Part shown: in pieces, positions 23,588 to 31,017 of the stretch | How the letters are laid out: every line of letters starts with the position of its first letter | How positions within the stretch are numbered: the first letter of the stretch is position 1 | NCBI GenBank assembly: GCA_025359045.1 | Contig: JANYHN010000008.1 | Coordinates: 1-64,000 of the forward strand | Length of the DNA stretch: 64,000 nucleotides | Source: Hyphomicrobiales bacterium | Lineage (GTDB): Bacteria; Pseudomonadota; Alphaproteobacteria; Rhizobiales; Aestuariivirgaceae | Reading direction: 5' to 3' | Made by a program: the position numbers and the translations under genes | Notes under the pieces: model-generated | The model's database searches: none | What the model was told of the DNA's origin: nothing | The model's input: the letters and a program-made list of their open reading frames with translations, nothing else

Positions 23588-24004
23588 TCAATTCAGCGCG
23601 GTCGCAACTTCACTCAGCTTGGTTGTGGCCAATGACCTCGTGAGAGCCAATTCGGCTTCTTTAAGACGTGGGGCAAGAACCTTACCTAACTGGCACGCAA
23701 CCGGACAATCAGCATCCGGGTCAACCTTGTGCATGCGAAACACGGTATCGTTTTCGACAGCGGCATAAACACAAGCCAAGCTAATATCGCAAGCTCCACG
23801 GCTGAGGGCAAATCCCCCCGCCCGACCAGCCGTCGACGTGACTAAAGTGGCTTTTTCCAATTCGGACATCATCCGGCGGATAACGACAGGATTAGTGCCA
23901 ACACTTTCGGCAATCGCCGACGAACACATAGGCCCTTTGCCTGCGTTTTTCGCAAGCAGGCTCAAGACATGGACGGCAACGATAAATCGGCTACTGGATA
24001 ACAT
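23588..24004 (-). CDS. Rrf2-family transcriptional regulator
   Basis: A 138-residue winged-helix regulator of the Rrf2 family. The N-terminal HTH segment SSAIAESVGTNPVVIRRMMS and the wing STAGRAGGFALSRG are typical. It has CPVAC in the C-terminal half, not the three-cysteine cluster motif of IscR or NsrR, so it is closer to the YwnA-like subgroup that senses by cysteine oxidation or other means. Start ATG at 24004. An inverted repeat TAAATGC-N20-GCATTTA (24025-24058) just upstream could be its operator. Confidence 0.85.
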   Translation of the reverse strand: MLSSSRFIVAVHVLSLLAKNAGKGPMCSSAIAESVGTNPVVIRRMMSELEKATLVTSTAGRAGGFALSRGACDISLACVYAAVENDTVFRMHKVDPDADCPVACQLGKVLAPRLKEAELALTRSLATTKLSEVATALN

Positions 24005-24024
24005 GATGACCTCTAGATCGGCGC

Positions 24025-24058
24025 TAAATGCCTAAAAATCAAGCCCCTAAAGCATTTA
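24025..24058. promoter_or_regulatory. Inverted repeat upstream of Rrf2 gene
   Basis: TAAATGC (24025-24031) and GCATTTA (24052-24058) are perfect 7-bp arms 20 nt apart, starting 20 bp upstream of the Rrf2 ATG, between that gene and the divergent ftsB-like gene. An autoregulatory role is inferred from position only. Confidence 0.3.
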
Positions 24059-24067
24059 TCAGAAACG

Positions 24068-24084
24068 TTAGCTAATCCTTAACC
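24068..24084 (+). promoter_or_regulatory. CtrA-box-like site before ftsB-like gene
   Basis: TTAG-N7-TTAACC (24068-24084) matches the alphaproteobacterial CtrA consensus TTAA-N7-TTAA(C) except for one base, and lies 22 bp before the ATG of the cell division gene. Such boxes are short and arise by chance, so the assignment is tentative. Confidence 0.3.
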
Positions 24085-24106
24085 AGGACTGCACGATCAA
24101 TAACCT

Positions 24107-24412
24107 ATGCGATTTTTACGTTTCAAGAGATTCGAGTTTCTGGTCAGTATGGGTTGCCTCACAATGCTTGGCTATTTTGCCTGGCAAGCTGAGCGCGGCC
24201 CACGTGGTTTTACGTATCAAAGAAACTTGACAGAGCAATTGGAAAAATTTACGACTCAACTTGAGGCGATCAAGGGTGATCGCAACACCTTAGAGGCCCG
24301 CGTAGCAGAGTTGCGCCCTGATGCGATTGACCCTGATCTTTTGGATGAAATGGCGCGAAAAAATCTTGGTTTCGTATCGACAAACCAAGTCGTGGTTCAC
24401 TTTTCAAACTGA
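24107..24412 (+). CDS. Septum formation initiator, FtsB/DivIC-like
   Basis: A 101-residue FtsB/DivIC-type protein. It has one membrane helix near the N terminus (about 10-27, FLVSMGCLTMLGYFAWQA), a following coiled coil (about 38-66, LTEQLEKFTTQLEAIKGDRN) and the conserved C-terminal DPDLLDEMARKNLGFVS segment. In the FtsQLB complex such proteins activate septal peptidoglycan synthesis. The gene precedes pdhA, as in many Hyphomicrobiales, but 109 nt separate it from pdhA, so it may have its own promoter. Confidence 0.88.
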   Translation: MRFLRFKRFEFLVSMGCLTMLGYFAWQAERGPRGFTYQRNLTEQLEKFTTQLEAIKGDRNTLEARVAELRPDAIDPDLLDEMARKNLGFVSTNQVVVHFSN

Positions 24413-24521
24413 TTTCTCAGCAGAATCCGTGCGCTAAACCAAAATCAAGTTAATATGCTTTTTCGCAAGCATCTACAGCTGTTTACTGCTAGTCTTAATC
24501 CAGAAAACGGGAGAATGCCGA

Positions 24522-25580
24522 ATGGCCGTCAGCTCAGCATACTTGGCACGCAAAGCCGCCAAGGCAGAAAAATCCACGAAATCATCAGCTAAAGTTGAAT
24601 TGAAAAATTCAGGCCTCAGCTCAGACGAAGAACTGAAAGCTTATTATGACATGTTGCTCATTCGCCGCTTTGAAGAAAAGGCGGGCCAGCTCTATGGAAT
24701 GGGTTCCATCGGCGGATTTTGCCATTTGTATATTGGGCAAGAAGCCGTTGTTGTTGGCATGGAGATGTCAGCCATTGAGGGTGACCAACGCATTACTTCA
24801 TACCGCGATCATGGCCACATGTTGGCCTGCGGGATGGAAGCCAAAGGTGTGATGGCTGAACTCACCGGCAGACAAGGCGGATATTCAAAAGGCAAGGGCG
24901 GCTCGATGCATATGTTCAGCCGCGAAAAGCAGTTTTACGGCGGCCACGGCATTGTCGCAGCGCAAGTGCCACTCGGAGCAGGGCTAGCCTTTGCTAATAA
25001 ATATCGTGGCAATAAAAATGTTTCGATGGTCTATTTTGGTGATGGCGCTGCCAACCAAGGCCAAGTTTATGAAACCTTCAATATGGCCTCCATCTGGAAA
25101 TTGCCTTGCATATTCGTGATCGAAAACAACCGCTACGCGATGGGCACGTCGGCCACGCGTTCAACTGCCGCTTCTGATCACTTGGGCGCACGTGGCGAAG
25201 CTTTCGGTATTCCGTCCGAACAAGTCGATGGCATGGATGTGCGCGCTGTGAAAGAAGCAGCCGACCGCGCCATGGAACATTGTCGTTCAGGGGCAGGGCC
25301 TTACATATTGGAAATGATGACCTATCGCTACCGCGGCCACTCCATGTCTGATCCTGCAAAATATCGCAGCAAAGAAGAAGTGCAGAAAATGCGCGAAGAA
25401 CATGATCCTATTGAACAGGTAAAAGCCCGACTACTGAAATCCAATCGCGCTTCGGAAGATGATTTGAAAAAGATGGATGCGGATATTCGCGAGATTGTGA
25501 CTGCGGCGGCGGATTTTGCAGTTGCAGATGCGCAGCCTGATGCGTCTGAGCTTTATACTGATATTTATAAAGTGGCTTGA
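24522..25580 (+). CDS. pdhA: Pyruvate dehydrogenase E1 component, alpha subunit
   Basis: The 352-residue E1 alpha subunit binds thiamine diphosphate and decarboxylates pyruvate together with PdhB. The TPP motif is [19 protein letters not shown] (about 170-190) and [11 protein letters not shown] follows. The phosphorylation-loop-like segment [20 protein letters not shown] is also present (quoted in part: [14 protein letters not shown]). A short Lys/Ala-rich N-terminal extension precedes the domain. It is followed by pdhB with an 11-nt gap and GAGGAG ribosome-binding site. Confidence 0.97.
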
Positions 25581-25591
25581 GGAGAACAGCA

Positions 25592-26989
25592 ATGCCAACC
25601 ATCCTTATGCCCGCACTTTCGCCCACCATGGAGGAAGGCAAGCTCGCCAAATGGCTAAAGAACGTCGGAGATCAAGTAAAGTCCGGCGACGTTTTGGCTG
25701 AGATTGAAACTGATAAAGCCACAATGGAAATTGAGGCTATCGATGAAGGCGTGTTGACGGCGATCATGGTTCCAGAAGGAACTGAAGGTGTTAAAGTGAA
25801 TGCGCCGATTGCGGTGATTAGGGAGGCTTCGGCACAGCCCTCTCCTGGCGCAAGTGCGCCTGTCTCTCCCGTAAAGGGAGAGACTCAGAAAGAGGCGCAA
25901 TCGCCAGCCGTAAACCAGGTCTCTCCCCCCGCGGGAGAGACAGTCGTGCGCAGCACGACAGGAGAGGGCGGTGTTCTCTCCGACCCAGAAATCCCCGCTG
26001 GCACAGAAATGATCACCATGACGGTGCGTGAAGCCTTGCGCTCTGCGATGTCAGAAGAAATGCGTCGCGACAAAGATGTGTTTTTGATGGGCGAGGAGGT
26101 GGGCCAGTATCAAGGTGCTTATAAAATCAGCCAAGGCATGCTCGATGAATTCGGCCCAGAGCGCGTTCTCGATACGCCAATTACCGAACACGGCTTTACC
26201 GGTATTGCTACAGGTGCTGCTTTTGCAGGATTGAAGCCAATTGTTGAGTTCATGACTTTCAACTTTGCCATGCAAGCGATTGATCACATCATCAACTCAG
26301 CAGCCAAAACGCTTTATATGTCTGGTGGGCAAATGGGGTGCCCTATCGTGTTCCGTGGCCCCAATGGTGCCGCAGCTCGCGTGGGCGCACAGCACAGCCA
26401 AGACTATACCGCCTGGTATTCACAAATACCGGGCCTCAAAGTGGTGGCGCCATATTCTGCCGCTGATGCCAAAGGCTTGATGAAAGCCGCCATCCGCGAT
26501 CCGAACCCCATCATCTTTCTCGAAAATGAAATCCTTTATGGGAAGTCATTTGAAGTGCCGAATCTGGAGGATTGGGTGGTGCCGATCGGCAAAGCCCGTG
26601 TTGCTCGCGCAGGCACTCACGTTACAATTGTTTCTTTCAGCATCGGCATGACGTACGCGCTGGCTGCTGCGGAGAAATTAGCGGCTGAGGGGATCGAATG
26701 CGAAGTGATTGATCTCCGAACCATTCGCCCCATGGACGTTGAAACAGTGGTTGAGAGCGTGAAGAAAACCAATCGCTGCGTGTGCGTGGAAGAAGGCTTC
26801 CCGCGCTTTTCTGTCACCTCGGAACTCGCAGCTGAAATTATGACACATGCCTTTGATTATCTCGATGCGCCCGTTGCACGTGTTGCTGGCAAAGATGTGC
26901 CGATGCCTTATGCCGCAAATTTAGAAAAACTGGCGCTGCCCAACGTCGATGATGTTGTGGCCGCCGTAAAAGGAGTTCTCTATGTCTGA
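25592..26989 (+). CDS. pdhB: Pyruvate dehydrogenase E1 beta subunit with lipoyl domain
   Basis: A 465-residue protein. Residues 1-78 form a lipoyl domain with Lys42 in [11 protein letters not shown] as the lipoylation site. Residues about 79-135 form a Pro/Ala/Ser/Gly linker, of which 83-126 are encoded by a palindromic DNA element (25838-25968). Residues about 140-465 are the E1 beta transketolase-like fold ([47 protein letters not shown]). Lipoylated E1 beta is a known trait of Alphaproteobacteria. ATG 25592 follows GAGGAG; the TTG at 25577 is inside pdhA. It overlaps DUF5076 by 8 nt. Confidence 0.96.
25838..25968. repeat. In-frame palindromic element in pdhB linker
   Basis: Perfect 10-bp terminal inverted repeats (CCCTCTCCTG 25838-25847, CAGGAGAGGG 25959-25968) enclose several hairpins: GGCGC-AAGT-GCGCC (25847-25860, touching the terminus), GTCTCTCCC-N5-GGGAGAGAC (25862-25884), a second copy of this hairpin (25919-25941) and GTCGTGC-GCA-GCACGAC (25943-25959). 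It encodes about 44 residues of the interdomain linker. A shorter relative lies in pdhC. Confidence 0.75.
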
Positions 26990-27317
26990 CCACGACCACC
27001 ATCACCACGACCATTCCCACGAGACCCATCCACATCAGCTGCAACCGCCCCATGAAGTGTTTCATGATTCAGGCGCTGGCGAAATTGCGCGCGTTTGGAT
27101 TACCAAGGGCCAGCTCAGCCTGTCGCTTCATGCAATGGCATTTGGCAAAGCTGATGTGTGGGGCCACGCGCTGGCTGGAATTGCCCAACAAGTGGCTGGC
27201 GCTTGCGCCGAAATGGGCCATGGCACTGTGTCTGCAAATCTCGACGCTATTCGCAAAGCTTTGACCGAAGATCTGGCCAAAGCCGCCGCTCAAAACTCGG
27301 TTCTGAACAACAAATAA
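26982..27317 (+). CDS. DUF5076 protein with histidine-rich N terminus
   Basis: A 111-residue protein found between pdhB and pdhC. Its first 28 residues contain eleven histidines ([14 protein letters not shown]), a possible metal-binding tail. The remainder (about 30-105) matches the DUF5076 family: [48 protein letters not shown]. The family is known mainly from this position in Hyphomicrobiales; its role in the pyruvate dehydrogenase complex is untested. It overlaps pdhB by 8 nt and is followed by pdhC after 15 nt. Confidence 0.85.
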
Positions 27318-27332
27318 CGAGAGGCAAAACCC

Positions 27333-28643
27333 ATGCCCGTCACCATCCTTATGCCCGCCCTTTCGCCCACCATGGAAAAGGGCAAGCTTGCCAAATGGCT
27401 CAAGAAAGAGGGCGACAAGGTTAAATCTGGTGATGTGCTGGCCGAAATTGAAACCGATAAAGCCACAATGGAAATTGAAGCCATTGATGAGGGCACTTTG
27501 GGCAAGATTATTGTGGCTGAAGGCACTGAAGATGTGTTGGTCAATGCGCCGATTGCAGTGATTTTGGGTGAAGGGGAGAAGCTGAGTGATGTTGCGGCAC
27601 TGCCCTCTCCTGGCGCTAAAGCGCCTGTCTCTCCCGTGAAGGGAGAGACTCAGAAAGAAGCTCCGTTGCCGAACACAAGCCAAGTCTCTCCCCCCGCGGG
27701 AGAGGGCAGTCGCGTCTTCGCAACCCCTCTCGCCCGCCGACTTGCTGCACAAAAAAGCATCAGCCTGCAATCCATATCCGGCTCCGGCCCGTATGGTCGT
27801 ATAATAGCGAAAGACATAGAGACGGCGCTGACTGCTCCCCAATCACCAGTCGGCGCGCGAGGTGCGGCCATAGCTTCGGGGGCGAACGTGGCCGCATCGA
27901 CCCCCTCTGAAGCTTCTGTTCTTAAATTGTTCGAAGATGGCTCCTACGATCTGGTTCCCCATGACGGCATGCGCAAAACCATCGCGCGCCGTTTGACCGA
28001 ATCCAAGCAAACCGTTCCGCATTTCTATGTCACAGTTGATATTTCGCTGGAAAATTTGCTGGCTTTGCGTGAACGCCTGAACTTGCAAGCACCCAAAGAT
28101 AAAGACGGCAAGCCCGCGTGGAAAGTTTCGGTCAATGATTTCGTGATCAAGGCCATGGCAATGGCGCTGATCAAAGTGCCGGATGCCAATGTAAGCTGGA
28201 CTGAAAATAATATGGTAAAGCACCACCATGCTGACGTGGGCGTGGCTGTTTCCATCCCCGGCGGCTTGATCACGCCGATTGTACGAAAAGCCGAAACCAA
28301 GGGTCTAGCGCAAATCTCAATTGAGATGAAAGATTATGCCGCACGGGCCAAATCACGCAAACTCAACCCATCTGAATATACGGGTGGATCATGCTCAGTG
28401 TCCAACATGGGAATGATGGGTGTGAAAAACTTCCAAGCCATCGTCAACCCACCGCAAGCCACAATTCTGGCCGTGGGGGCGGGCGAGCGCCGCGCAGTAG
28501 TTCGTGGCAATGACATTGTGATTGAGCAGCTGATGAGCGTGACACTATCAACCGACCACCGCGCCGTCGACGGCGCATTGGGTGCGGAGTTCTTGGGTGC
28601 GATCAAGATGTACCTCGAAGAGCCGGGGCTGATGTTGGTGTGA
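27333..28643 (+). CDS. pdhC: Pyruvate dehydrogenase E2, dihydrolipoyl acetyltransferase
   Basis: The 436-residue E2 core of the complex moves the acetyl group to CoA. Residues 1-78 are a lipoyl domain with Lys43 in [12 protein letters not shown] linker follows, of which about 91-125 are encoded by a palindromic element. Residues about 128-167 are the E1/E3-binding domain (VFATPLARRLAAQK, GSGPYGRIIAKDIE). From about 205 is the catalytic domain (GMRKTIARRLTESKQTVPHFY in part), with the histidine and aspartate of STDHRAVDGALG near the C terminus. The lipoyl domain is very close to that of pdhB. Confidence 0.97.
   Translation: MPVTILMPALSPTMEKGKLAKWLKKEGDKVKSGDVLAEIETDKATMEIEAIDEGTLGKIIVAEGTEDVLVNAPIAVILGEGEKLSDVAALPSPGAKAPVSPVKGETQKEAPLPNTSQVSPPAGEGSRVFATPLARRLAAQKSISLQSISGSGPYGRIIAKDIETALTAPQSPVGARGAAIASGANVAASTPSEASVLKLFEDGSYDLVPHDGMRKTIARRLTESKQTVPHFYVTVDISLENLLALRERLNLQAPKDKDGKPAWKVSVNDFVIKAMAMALIKVPDANVSWTENNMVKHHHADVGVAVSIPGGLITPIVRKAETKGLAQISIEMKDYAARAKSRKLNPSEYTGGSCSVSNMGMMGVKNFQAIVNPPQATILAVGAGERRAVVRGNDIVIEQLMSVTLSTDHRAVDGALGAEFLGAIKMYLEEPGLMLV
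27603..27706. repeat. In-frame palindromic element in pdhC linker
   Basis: A shorter relative of the pdhB element. CCCTCTCC (27603-27610) and GGAGAGGG (27699-27706) are the ends. The first two hairpins are kept with changes only in the loops (GGCGC-TAAA-GCGCC; GTCTCTCCC-GTGAA-GGGAGAGAC), while the last GTCGTGC hairpin is absent. It is in the same reading frame as in pdhB. Confidence 0.72.
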
Positions 28644-28650
28644 GGGTGTA

Positions 28651-28941
28651 TTGAAACAGCTTTTACTTCTCGCAGTGGCGATTGTGTGTTTGCAAATTAC
28701 ATCTGTTTTGGCGGCAAGTAATTATTGCCAACCGCGATCTGCTGTTTGTGTGATTATTGATGATGGCTTCTGTAGTAGAGCGCTGACAAATTTGAGAAAA
28801 GTAGAATCCTCTTCTGATTATCGTTATGCAATTAAAGCATCACATGGTGACCAACACAAATTATGGACTTTTCGTTCTTACCAAAATGCAATGTCATTTC
28901 GTGCAGGACTCAAAATGGGAAAGTGTAAAAGTATAAAATGA
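28651..28941 (+). CDS. Small secreted cysteine-containing protein
   Basis: Not a recognised family. The 96-residue product begins with a Sec signal (KQLLLLAVAIVCLQITSVLA) and has four cysteines in the mature part (26, 33, 41, 92), enough for two disulfides. The start is TTG at 28651, preceded by GAGGG; there is no in-frame ATG near. It lies 7 nt after pdhC and its stop overlaps the SGNH hydrolase ATG by 4 nt, so it is cotranscribed with them. Base use is more AT-rich than the flanking pdh genes, which may mean recent arrival. Confidence 0.65.
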   Translation: MKQLLLLAVAIVCLQITSVLAASNYCQPRSAVCVIIDDGFCSRALTNLRKVESSSDYRYAIKASHGDQHKLWTFRSYQNAMSFRAGLKMGKCKSIK

Positions 28942-29576
28942 AATCTATGCTCGCATTCGGAGATTCCCTCACTTGGGGTTACAACTCCTCTACTGGCATG
29001 CGTATGGCCTATGAAGATCGTTGGCCGAATGTGCTTGCAGCAGGTCTTGCCAATAAAGCCCGCGTGATTGAAGAGGGCATGAACGGGCGCACCACAGTGT
29101 TTGATGACCCCACGACAGAAGAAAACCGCAATGGCGCTGTGGGCTTGCCTATCGCGCTGAAAACCCATCAGCCGCTTGATCTTGTCATTATCATGCTCGG
29201 CACCAATGATATTAAATATGCTAGCCGCTGCCGCGCTTTTGATGCTTCGATGGGCATGGAGCGTTTGGTGAAGCTGACTCGCAATCATAATTGGTCTGGC
29301 ACATATGTTTGCCCGCCTATTCTCATCATGTCACCACCCGCATTGGTGGCCACTCAAAATGAATGGTTCAACGATCTTTGGGGCCATGCCATTGAAGAGT
29401 CGAAGCTCTTCGCCCATCATTATTCTCGAATTGCGAAAGAATTAGATATTCATTTCTTTGATGCGGGTTCAGTAGCAAGGGCCAGCAATGTCGATGGCGG
29501 GCATTTGGACGTGGCAAATACGAGAGCGATTGGCTCAGCACTGGTGCCCTTGGTGAAGAAGATTTTGGAGATATAA
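28938..29576 (+). CDS. SGNH/GDSL hydrolase family protein
   Basis: A 212-residue SGNH hydrolase. Block I is LAFGDSLTWGY with Ser10 as likely nucleophile, the Gly/Asn blocks are EGMNGRTT and MLGTNDIK, and the C-terminal block is DGGHLDVANT with the catalytic Asp/His. No signal peptide. It resembles the arylesterase/acyl-CoA thioesterase-like group. A gene of this kind between pdhC and lpdA is common in Hyphomicrobiales; whether it serves the complex is unknown. The lpdA ATG begins one base after its stop. Confidence 0.88.
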   Translation: MKSMLAFGDSLTWGYNSSTGMRMAYEDRWPNVLAAGLANKARVIEEGMNGRTTVFDDPTTEENRNGAVGLPIALKTHQPLDLVIIMLGTNDIKYASRCRAFDASMGMERLVKLTRNHNWSGTYVCPPILIMSPPALVATQNEWFNDLWGHAIEESKLFAHHYSRIAKELDIHFFDAGSVARASNVDGGHLDVANTRAIGSALVPLVKKILEI

Positions 29577-29577
29577 A

Positions 29578-31017
29578 ATGGCCGACACGAATTTTGACGT
29601 TCTCATCATCGGCGCAGGCCCCGGCGGCTATGTGACGGCAATTCGCGCAGCGCAGCTTGGGTTCAAGGTTGCCCTCGTTGAGCGCGAACATTTGGGCGGC
29701 ATCTGCCTCAACTGGGGTTGCATCCCCACCAAGGCGCTACTGCGTTCTGCTGAAATTTATCACTACATGAACCATGCCGAAAACTACGGACTTTCGGCCA
29801 AAGATGTAAGCTTTGATCCAAGCAAAATCGTTGCGCGTTCACGTGCCGTATCATCACGCCTCACTATGGGTGTGGGTGGATTGTTGAAAAAGAACAAAGT
29901 GCAAATCATCTGGGGTGAAGCCAAGTTGACCAAGCCTGGCGAAGTGGTGGTGGCAGATACTAAAAAACACATTTATGAGCCACAAAACCCGCCGCCAAAA
30001 GGCACACTGGGTGCCGGCACTTATACCGCTAAACACATCATCGTCGCCACTGGCGCACGACCGCGCGTGTTGCCCGGCCTTGAGCATGATGGCAAATTAG
30101 TTTGGAGCTACTTCGAGGCCATGGTTCCAAAGGAAATGCCGAAGTCACTTCTGGTCGTCGGCTCCGGTGCTATCGGCATTGAGTTTGCCAGTTTCTATAA
30201 CTCCATGGGCGTTGATGTGACTGTGGTTGAAATCATGGATCAGATCATGCCGGTGGAAGACACTGAGATTTCCAAAATCGCTCAAAAACAATTGGAAAAG
30301 CAGGGCATCAAATTCCGCATTTCAGCCAAAGTTGCTTCACTCAAAAAGGGCGCGAATAATGTGACCGCCACAATAGAGCAGGGTGCAAACAAAGAAGAAT
30401 TGACCGTTGACCGCGTGATTGCTGCAACAGGCGTTGTGGGCAATATTGAAAACCTTGGCCTTGAAATTTTAGGTGTAAAAACCGAAAAAGGTTGCGTCGT
30501 CATCGACGGATTTGGCCGCACCAATGTTGCTGGTCTTTATGCCATAGGTGACGTTGCCGGCCCGCCGATGCTCGCACATAAAGCCGAACATGAAGGCGTG
30601 ATCTGCATTGAGAAAATTAAAGGCCTTGATGCCCATCCGATGAAGAAAGAACAAATCCCCGGCTGCACTTATTGTCATCCGCAAGTGGCTTCCGTCGGAC
30701 TTACAGAAGCCAAGGCCAAGGCCGCAGGCTTTGAACTCAAAATCGGTCGCTTTCCTTTCTTGGCAAACGGCAAGGCCATCGCACTAGGTGAAGATCAAGG
30801 CCTGATCAAAACCATTTTTGATGCCAAGACGGGCCGTCTCATTGGAGCGCATATGGTGGGTGCAGAAGTGACCGAGTTAATCCAAGGCTTCGTCATCGCC
30901 ATGGGCCTTGAGACCACCGAGGAAGAATTGATGCACACTGTGTTTCCTCATCCGACATTATCTGAAATGATGCATGAAAGTGTTCTCGACGCTTACGGCC
31001 GCGTCATACATATGTGA
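29578..31017 (+). CDS. lpdA: Dihydrolipoyl dehydrogenase (E3)
   Basis: The 479-residue E3 flavoprotein reoxidises dihydrolipoamide and makes NADH. The FAD site is IIGAGPGGYV at 10-19, the redox-active disulfide is Cys43/Cys48 in GGICLNWGCIPTK, the NAD site is VVGSGAIGIEFASF, the second FAD motif is GLYAIGDVAGPPMLAHKA, and the C-terminal His-Glu pair is in HTVFPHPTLSEMMHE. It completes the full pyruvate dehydrogenase set in this cluster. As usual in this gene order, lipA follows after two small membrane genes. Confidence 0.97.
   Translation: MADTNFDVLIIGAGPGGYVTAIRAAQLGFKVALVEREHLGGICLNWGCIPTKALLRSAEIYHYMNHAENYGLSAKDVSFDPSKIVARSRAVSSRLTMGVGGLLKKNKVQIIWGEAKLTKPGEVVVADTKKHIYEPQNPPPKGTLGAGTYTAKHIIVATGARPRVLPGLEHDGKLVWSYFEAMVPKEMPKSLLVVGSGAIGIEFASFYNSMGVDVTVVEIMDQIMPVEDTEISKIAQKQLEKQGIKFRISAKVASLKKGANNVTATIEQGANKEELTVDRVIAATGVVGNIENLGLEILGVKTEKGCVVIDGFGRTNVAGLYAIGDVAGPPMLAHKAEHEGVICIEKIKGLDAHPMKKEQIPGCTYCHPQVASVGLTEAKAKAAGFELKIGRFPFLANGKAIALGEDQGLIKTIFDAKTGRLIGAHMVGAEVTELIQGFVIAMGLETTEEELMHTVFPHPTLSEMMHESVLDAYGRVIHM

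Follow-up and report, generated by a model that had tools for sequence, protein, structure and literature searches.

Nested palindromic repeats in the interdomain linkers of pdhB and pdhC of a Hyphomicrobiales bacterium

Palindromic repeats that encode protein are an already known kind of element. The Rickettsia palindromic elements (RPE; Ogata et al. 2000, 2002) are palindromic repeats of about 150 bp inserted in frame in unrelated genes; in the part of the published account available to us, nearly half lie in open reading frames (ORFs), the rest lie outside them, and several families occur per genome (PMC10969869). Here we describe two related nested-palindrome elements that encode the linkers of PdhB and PdhC, subunits of pyruvate dehydrogenase (PDH), in a 64,000-nucleotide stretch of a Hyphomicrobiales genome (assembly GCA_025359045.1, contig JANYHN010000008.1, positions 1 to 64,000, forward strand; hereafter the window). 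With a probability of roughly 0.86, these linkers are in-frame copies of a dispersed, selfish repeat, RPE-like in its way of working, which inserted into tolerant linkers and took the place of most of their original sequence. The genome holding the window is called G000 and its sister genome G020; other G-numbers denote the other compared genomes.

As far as RPE are portrayed in that part of the literature, the likeness extends to palindromic repeats lying in frame in unrelated genes and also outside ORFs, to the existence of several families, and to alphaproteobacterial hosts. In contrast to RPE, a single linker is held here by different repeat types across related species, and the layout is compound, with four hairpins. 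As a likeness by description, the resemblance to Rickettsia drawn in the preliminary description is upheld for the mode of working. Two features expected of protein-coding palindromic elements as a kind are found: copies occur at unrelated sites, and the in-frame insertion in an otherwise conserved gene is absent from relatives (38 of 55 linkers, as judged). As to translation, the inserts stand in an open frame and would be translated. The setting is one of free-living relatives such as Mesorhizobium, as opposed to the obligate intracellular Rickettsia.

Repetitive extragenic palindromic (REP) sequences of the GTAG/CGTC kind provide a further comparison. The sections of the source available to us describe them as paired palindromic units with structured spacers, with the CGTC kind common in Alphaproteobacteria and some units intragenic, and propose flexible linkers as places where REPs are tolerated (Di Nocera et al. 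2013, PMC3733652). A case from recB, in which two Xanthomonas species have different REPs at about one position (PMC3733652), is the nearest precedent for recurrence in the literature to the extent covered. A CGTC REP is defined there by an unpaired CGTC, TGTC or CCTC tag, an 8-9 bp stem starting with A-T, a loop of 4-5 nt and a CCA tail (PMC3733652). Judged against these sections, the window element resembles GTAG/CGTC REPs in having paired palindromic units with a spacer, some of them inside genes, and differs in being a compound unit of 104-143 bp that lacks an unpaired CGTC or GTAG tag. Membership of the CGTC superfamily was rejected on reading: the GTC that precedes the stem is itself paired, with GAC, and the stem does not start with A-T. 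The GTAG REP system was rejected as well, as no GTAG was read in the conserved columns of the copy alignment and as the REP-associated transposase genes of G000 and G020 were not found to be flanked by inverted repeats.

Terminal inverted repeats, the feature expected of miniature inverted-repeat transposable elements, are present and are exact in six of nine copies. Rhizobium-specific intergenic mosaic elements (RIME; Osteras et al. 1995) reportedly are repeated mosaic elements of rhizobial intergenic regions. By description only, they and the window element are alike as repeated mosaic elements, but RIME are named as intergenic.

The two host genes and the parts of the two elements are as follows.

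25592..26989, + strand: pdhB, host gene, encoding E1 beta with an N-terminal lipoyl domain
25838..25968, + strand: 131-bp nested palindromic element, corresponding to PdhB residues 83-126
25838..25847, + strand: left terminal inverted repeat CCCTCTCCTG
25847..25860, + strand: variable small hairpin hp1, GGCGC-AAGT-GCGCC, whose arms vary by copy but still self-pair
25862..25884, + strand: large hairpin of pdhB, GTCTCTCCC-GTAAA-GGGAGAGAC
25919..25941, + strand: second large hairpin of pdhB, GTCTCTCCC-CCCGC-GGGAGAGAC
25943..25959, + strand: variable small hairpin hp1' (17 nt) of pdhB, not in pdhC
25959..25968, + strand: right terminal inverted repeat of pdhB, CAGGAGAGGG
27333..28643, + strand: pdhC, host gene, encoding the E2 acyltransferase
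27603..27706, + strand: 104-bp copy, corresponding to PdhC residues 91-125, without the right small hairpin
27627..27649, + strand: large hairpin of pdhC, GTCTCTCCC-GTGAA-GGGAGAGAC
27686..27704, + strand: second large hairpin of pdhC, CTCTCCC-CCCGC-GGGAGAG

Both inserts fall between Pfam domains: in PdhB between lipoyl (residues 3-76) and Transket_pyr (from 143), in PdhC between lipoyl (4-77) and E3_binding (128-163). The sizes, positions and residue ranges given in the preliminary description proved correct, as did the loop differences (AAGT/TAAA and GTAAA/GTGAA) and the perfect terminal repeats of 10 bp in pdhB and 8 bp in pdhC, the latter reaching 12 nt once flanking bases are counted. The 17-nt hairpin GTCGTGCGCAGCACGAC is indeed confined to pdhB within the window. 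However, pdhC of G020 keeps a hairpin at the site where that of G000 has none, and the gap therefore looks like a later loss; the G000 sequence would be compatible with an in-frame deletion of 30 nt between two GGAGAG repeats.

Chance palindromes are ruled out both by shuffling, for the core pattern, and by synonymous recoding, for the stability of the fold. The pattern CTCTCCC-N0-12-GGGAGAG occurs four times in the window, against none in 100 shuffles, and the linkers of pdhB (z = -5.35, predicted fold -102.8 kcal/mol) and pdhC (z = -3.02) are more stable than all of 300 codon-preserving recodings each. A search of Rfam returned nothing above gathering score in window positions 24000-31000.

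The element is dispersed, and nine distinct copies from G000 and G020, those in pdh included, were aligned. A full copy begins with the terminal repeat CCCTCTCCTG, followed by a small hairpin and a large one, GTCTCTCC..GGAGAGAC; after a spacer of roughly 25-35 nt, these parts recur in mirror image up to the closing CAGGAGAGGG. The ends are inexact in three copies: C33 has one mismatch, C15 is changed at both ends, and the G000 pdhC copy is truncated. The pdhB copy was used as a query against 37 genomes, including 22 of the 36 same-genus relatives. In the window genome only pdhC matched at near full length, whereas G020 yielded both pdh genes and full-length copies at C47:32134, C47:32603 and C45:60493; of the other genomes only G046 was matched, and in part. 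Taken alone, this result would suggest a pdh-specific sequence, as would the exact 9+9 core, which in the window genome is restricted to pdhB and pdhC. That candidate is ruled out by two further window-genome copies, C33:8694 and C15:4258, retrieved with a non-pdh copy of G020 and its surroundings. The preliminary description named absence of the core from the remainder of the genome as a refuting outcome; read literally, that is the outcome for the exact form, but full-length copies with a variant core do exist, and its proposed checks mostly favoured its interpretation. The C33 and C15 copies overlap no ORF of 100 aa or more. In G020 the C45 copy falls between ORFs, and a single 212-aa ORF (L212:1478-2113) has one of the C47 copies at each of its ends; the second (3') of these is in frame and would supply the C-terminus, again read as Pro-Ser-Pro. 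Each of the nine aligned copies can be read without a stop in one frame or more.

Among G000 loci, L015, L016, L017, L020 and L027 carry mosaic repeats of the form CCCTCACCTATCCC-hairpin-GGGCCCCTTTCCTCTCCCG, with variants, in which the large hairpins face outward, in contrast to the inward arrangement in pdh.

Relatives were compared in a same-genus sample of 37 genomes, 32 of which gave scorable linkers (29 pdhB and 26 pdhC, 55 in all; three of the 32 without a pdhB linker and six without a pdhC linker) and five none. Presence of an element was assigned by reading the sequences, because z alone overlaps slightly between the groups. Seventeen linkers (7 pdhB, 10 pdhC) in 12 genomes were judged palindromic, and 20 of the 32 genomes have none. 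The other 38 linkers, mostly Ala/Pro-rich, were judged to lack such stems, and they supply the relatives without the insert that the preliminary description had proposed to look for. The palindromic linkers have z from -5.35 to -1.07 (median -2.9), and for 14 of them at most 5 of 300 recodings were as stable; the rest range from -1.26 to +4.56 (median +1.1). Borderline cases are pdhC of G015 (z -1.07, taken as with), pdhB of G014 (z -1.26, taken as without) and pdhC of G029, taken as with although its longest perfect stem is only 7.

Two side observations concern these linkers. Those judged non-palindromic tend to be less folded than codon-preserving recodings of themselves (median z +1.1, rising to +4.6), which would fit an avoidance of structure. 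The contigs G009:C126 and G005:C228 stop at or near the pdhB linker, possibly through assembly broken by repeats.

The palindromic linkers hold several repeat types, which carry our own labels; besides the following, further types are present.

Type GTCTCTCCC: G000, G020
Type CCTCCCCC: G002, G021
Type CCCTCTCCC: G004
Type CTTCTCC: pdhB of G015, pdhC of G036
Type CCTCAGG: both genes of G012, pdhC of G015

On a midpoint-rooted tree of PdhB and PdhC without linkers, some nodes of which are weakly supported, the Fitch minimum for element presence is four changes in pdhB and five in pdhC (with pdhC of G019, read by eye only, entered as without), rising to six and eight with type labels. G021 clusters with G000 and G020 (support 0.95), yet its pdhB repeat type differs. 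Where G004 has its element, the close relative G023 has an Ala/Pro linker, with flanking DNA 93% (180 nt) and 91% (300 nt) identical. The mean linker is longer with an element than without (61.3 versus 50.0 aa in pdhB, 54.3 versus 47.1 aa in pdhC). Given that this gain amounts to only 11 and 7 residues, while the window elements encode 44 and 35, most of the old linker has probably been lost.

The stability of the predicted folds invites the proposal that selection maintains the hairpins for a role in the pdh mRNA, for example in ribosome pausing between domains or in subunit ratios. It would also account for a two-sided stem change between the pdhB genes of G000 and G020, in which CCC/GGG has become CCG/CGG. 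Against this proposal stand the same-genus linkers judged to be without such stems, the absence of a whole hairpin from G000 pdhC, and broken pairs in G020 pdhC. Furthermore, the CCG/CGG variant (in C33 and C15) and co-varying arms are found in non-pdh copies too. The large hairpins vary little among the nine copies, whereas the arms of the small hairpins diverge strongly between copies and are nevertheless self-complementary. For hp1, 52 of 54 positions pair within a copy, as opposed to 160 of 314 when an arm is set against that of another copy whose left arm is different, and for hp1' the figures are 58 of 59 and 224 of 354. Entering the arms by hand as stems builds a high value into the within-copy figure, and what the contrast demonstrates is that arms differ between copies. 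Since the stem variant and the arm co-variation also occur outside pdh, pairing is a property of the repeat, and a selected role in the pdh mRNA is highly improbable.

The relation of the two pdh copies bears on another explanation, gene conversion between the similar lipoyl regions, by which one linker would have spread to both pdhB and pdhC. Between the two genes the lipoyl DNA is 78% and the elements are 83% identical, and the spacer start TCAGAAAG is found in all four pdh copies of G000 and G020 and in none of the other five aligned copies. Its confinement to pdh makes a shared origin of the two copies likely and suggests, on sequence grounds, that one derived from the other or both from one source. 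Conversion is less easily reconciled with the unequal stretch from lipoyl domain to element (18 versus 39 nt, from coordinates) or with the different repeat types that pdhB and pdhC hold in G015 and in Mesorhizobium AR07, outside the genus. Moreover, G000 and G020 have both inserts in common, and the loops and small hairpins of these copies cluster by gene, not by genome; both inserts therefore appear to predate the split of the two genomes. The dispersed copies are left unexplained by conversion, and as a cause of the hairpins they already refute it. The preliminary description had likewise held that conversion would not explain the hairpins. As the route by which the linker reached both genes, conversion is possible but doubtful.

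For the elements of G004 and G015, and for that of Mesorhizobium outside the genus, repeats related to the linker element are scattered through the host genome. In the following, counts are of matches and not of copies, as palindromes match both strands. The G004 element has 27 matches in G004, with the best non-self ones at 94-98% over about 50 nt, and is matched in 15 other genomes of 20 searched (e.g., 25 in G019 and 24 in G001). For the G015 element the matches number 47 in G015, 51 in G036, 28 in G021, 15 in G000 and 64 in G001; G015, G021 and G036 contain many copies of near full length. Judged in this way, the link between linker and host repeat is good for G004, G015 and G000/G020, and weak for G002.

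Outside the genus, 124 linkers from 83 loci were folded against 60 recodings each. The median z was +0.2, and seven fell below -2, one of which (L058) is identical to a G011 contig. Six linkers at five loci were read as palindromic, three of them with z above -2; the linkers L137, L072 and L057, with z below -2, were left out of this reading. The six are the pdhC linkers of a Hyphomicrobiales and a Beijerinckiaceae metagenome-assembled genome, two Mesorhizobium and one Rhodopseudomonas, and the pdhB linker of Mesorhizobium AR07. The AR07 pdhC element has at least 120 matches in its own genome, at least 129 and 113 in two other Mesorhizobium and at least 74 in Nitratireductor, with one in Phyllobacterium and none in four other genomes.

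In-frame insertion is not limited to pdh. Among 40 stretches picked from match lists, and hence not random, five hold in-frame copies inside long ORFs: cobN of G000, G015 and G036, with a repeat of the G015 type, a 589-aa ORF of G021 with no Pfam family above cut-off, and an OHCU decarboxylase of G021, where an element of the G015 (CTTCTCC) type interrupts the domain in frame (L190:2042-2171) near profile position 22. In G000, cobN (L172:2021-2142; L222 = G000:C38:60497-63697) is interrupted in frame by two palindromic inserts, which belong to different families. The second resembles the description of a CGTC-1 REP, with its CGTC tag, a loop of GAAA and an 8-bp stem that contains one mismatch. 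By reading, this second site holds CGTC-type REPs in G000, G020 and G021, and other repeats in G015, G019 and G036.

Taken together, a course of events may be proposed for the dispersed repeat. It would have inserted into one pdh gene and then been copied to, or have separately landed in, the other. The insert could survive where the open frame of the palindrome encodes a peptide, predicted to be hydrophilic and composed of Pro, Ser, Gly and Glu, that can do the work of a linker. The greater part of the earlier Ala/Pro sequence would then have eroded. Selection would act as a filter for in-frame, stop-free and flexible insertions, and not for hairpins. The pairing of the arms may be kept by hairpin-templated correction or by exchange with other copies, and need not mean function.

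Several observations weigh against this account. Abundance does not predict inserts: the G004 element is matched 25 times in G019 and 24 times in G001, the G015 element 28 and 64 times, and both genomes were scored without elements. The G002 element has just 10 matches in G002, counting both pdh copies and opposite-strand ones, and the assignment of elements depends on our own reading, since z overlaps. Neither a clean empty site nor a target duplication was found when cobN of G000, G015 and G036 was compared with that of G020, whose residue GGAACC...CCTAACC may, as a guess, be a deletion scar. Finally, a mobilising enzyme is not evident. Among 23 same-genus genomes, a Y1 transposase of the REP-associated tyrosine transposase (RAYT) type (Y1_Tnp) was found in G000 (C60:19671), G020, G002, G006, G008 and G015, and not in the element carriers G004, G011, G012 and G021; no inverted repeats were found around the RAYTs of G000 and G020.

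The last two findings, with the lack of GTAG in the conserved columns, also speak against the view that the elements are REP units, each mobilised by a resident RAYT transposase. In its favour, besides the presence of the enzyme in G000 and G020, RAYTs occur in five of nine genomes with elements and in one of 12 without (Fisher p = 0.046, uncorrected for relatedness; 21 same-genus genomes with at least one scored linker, tallied by hand). The association is weak, and movement by a resident RAYT is unlikely.

Upstream of the RAYT-type transposases L253 (G000:C60:19671-19949) and L251 (G020) lie ATTACGGTGACACCCC..ATTGA sequences. Similar sequences are also present near L010 and L220, and apparently form a separate repeat family.

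A broader proposition is that, within this order of Alphaproteobacteria, the PDH interdomain linkers repeatedly receive selfish palindromes of unrelated families, which replace the Ala/Pro linker, and are possibly a preferred site, not merely a permissive one. We regard the chances of this proposition as evenly balanced. If it were true, new protein linkers would regularly arise from mobile repeats. The literature searched, from which most subscription journals were absent, yielded no description of PDH linkers being taken over repeatedly by different palindrome families. The loci form a comparative series in which one and the same linker, in an enzyme central to metabolism, holds different mobile palindromes in related species; it runs from elements added with some Ala/Pro kept to linkers largely replaced. 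With such a series it can be tested whether insertion is adaptive or neutral, and by what means palindromes that encode protein spread.

The gene set of the window comprises a gene taken from its sequence to be pdhA, together with pdhB, a DUF5076 gene and pdhC. The DUF5076 gene, at 26982-27317 between pdhB and pdhC, encodes a protein with an N-terminus rich in His.

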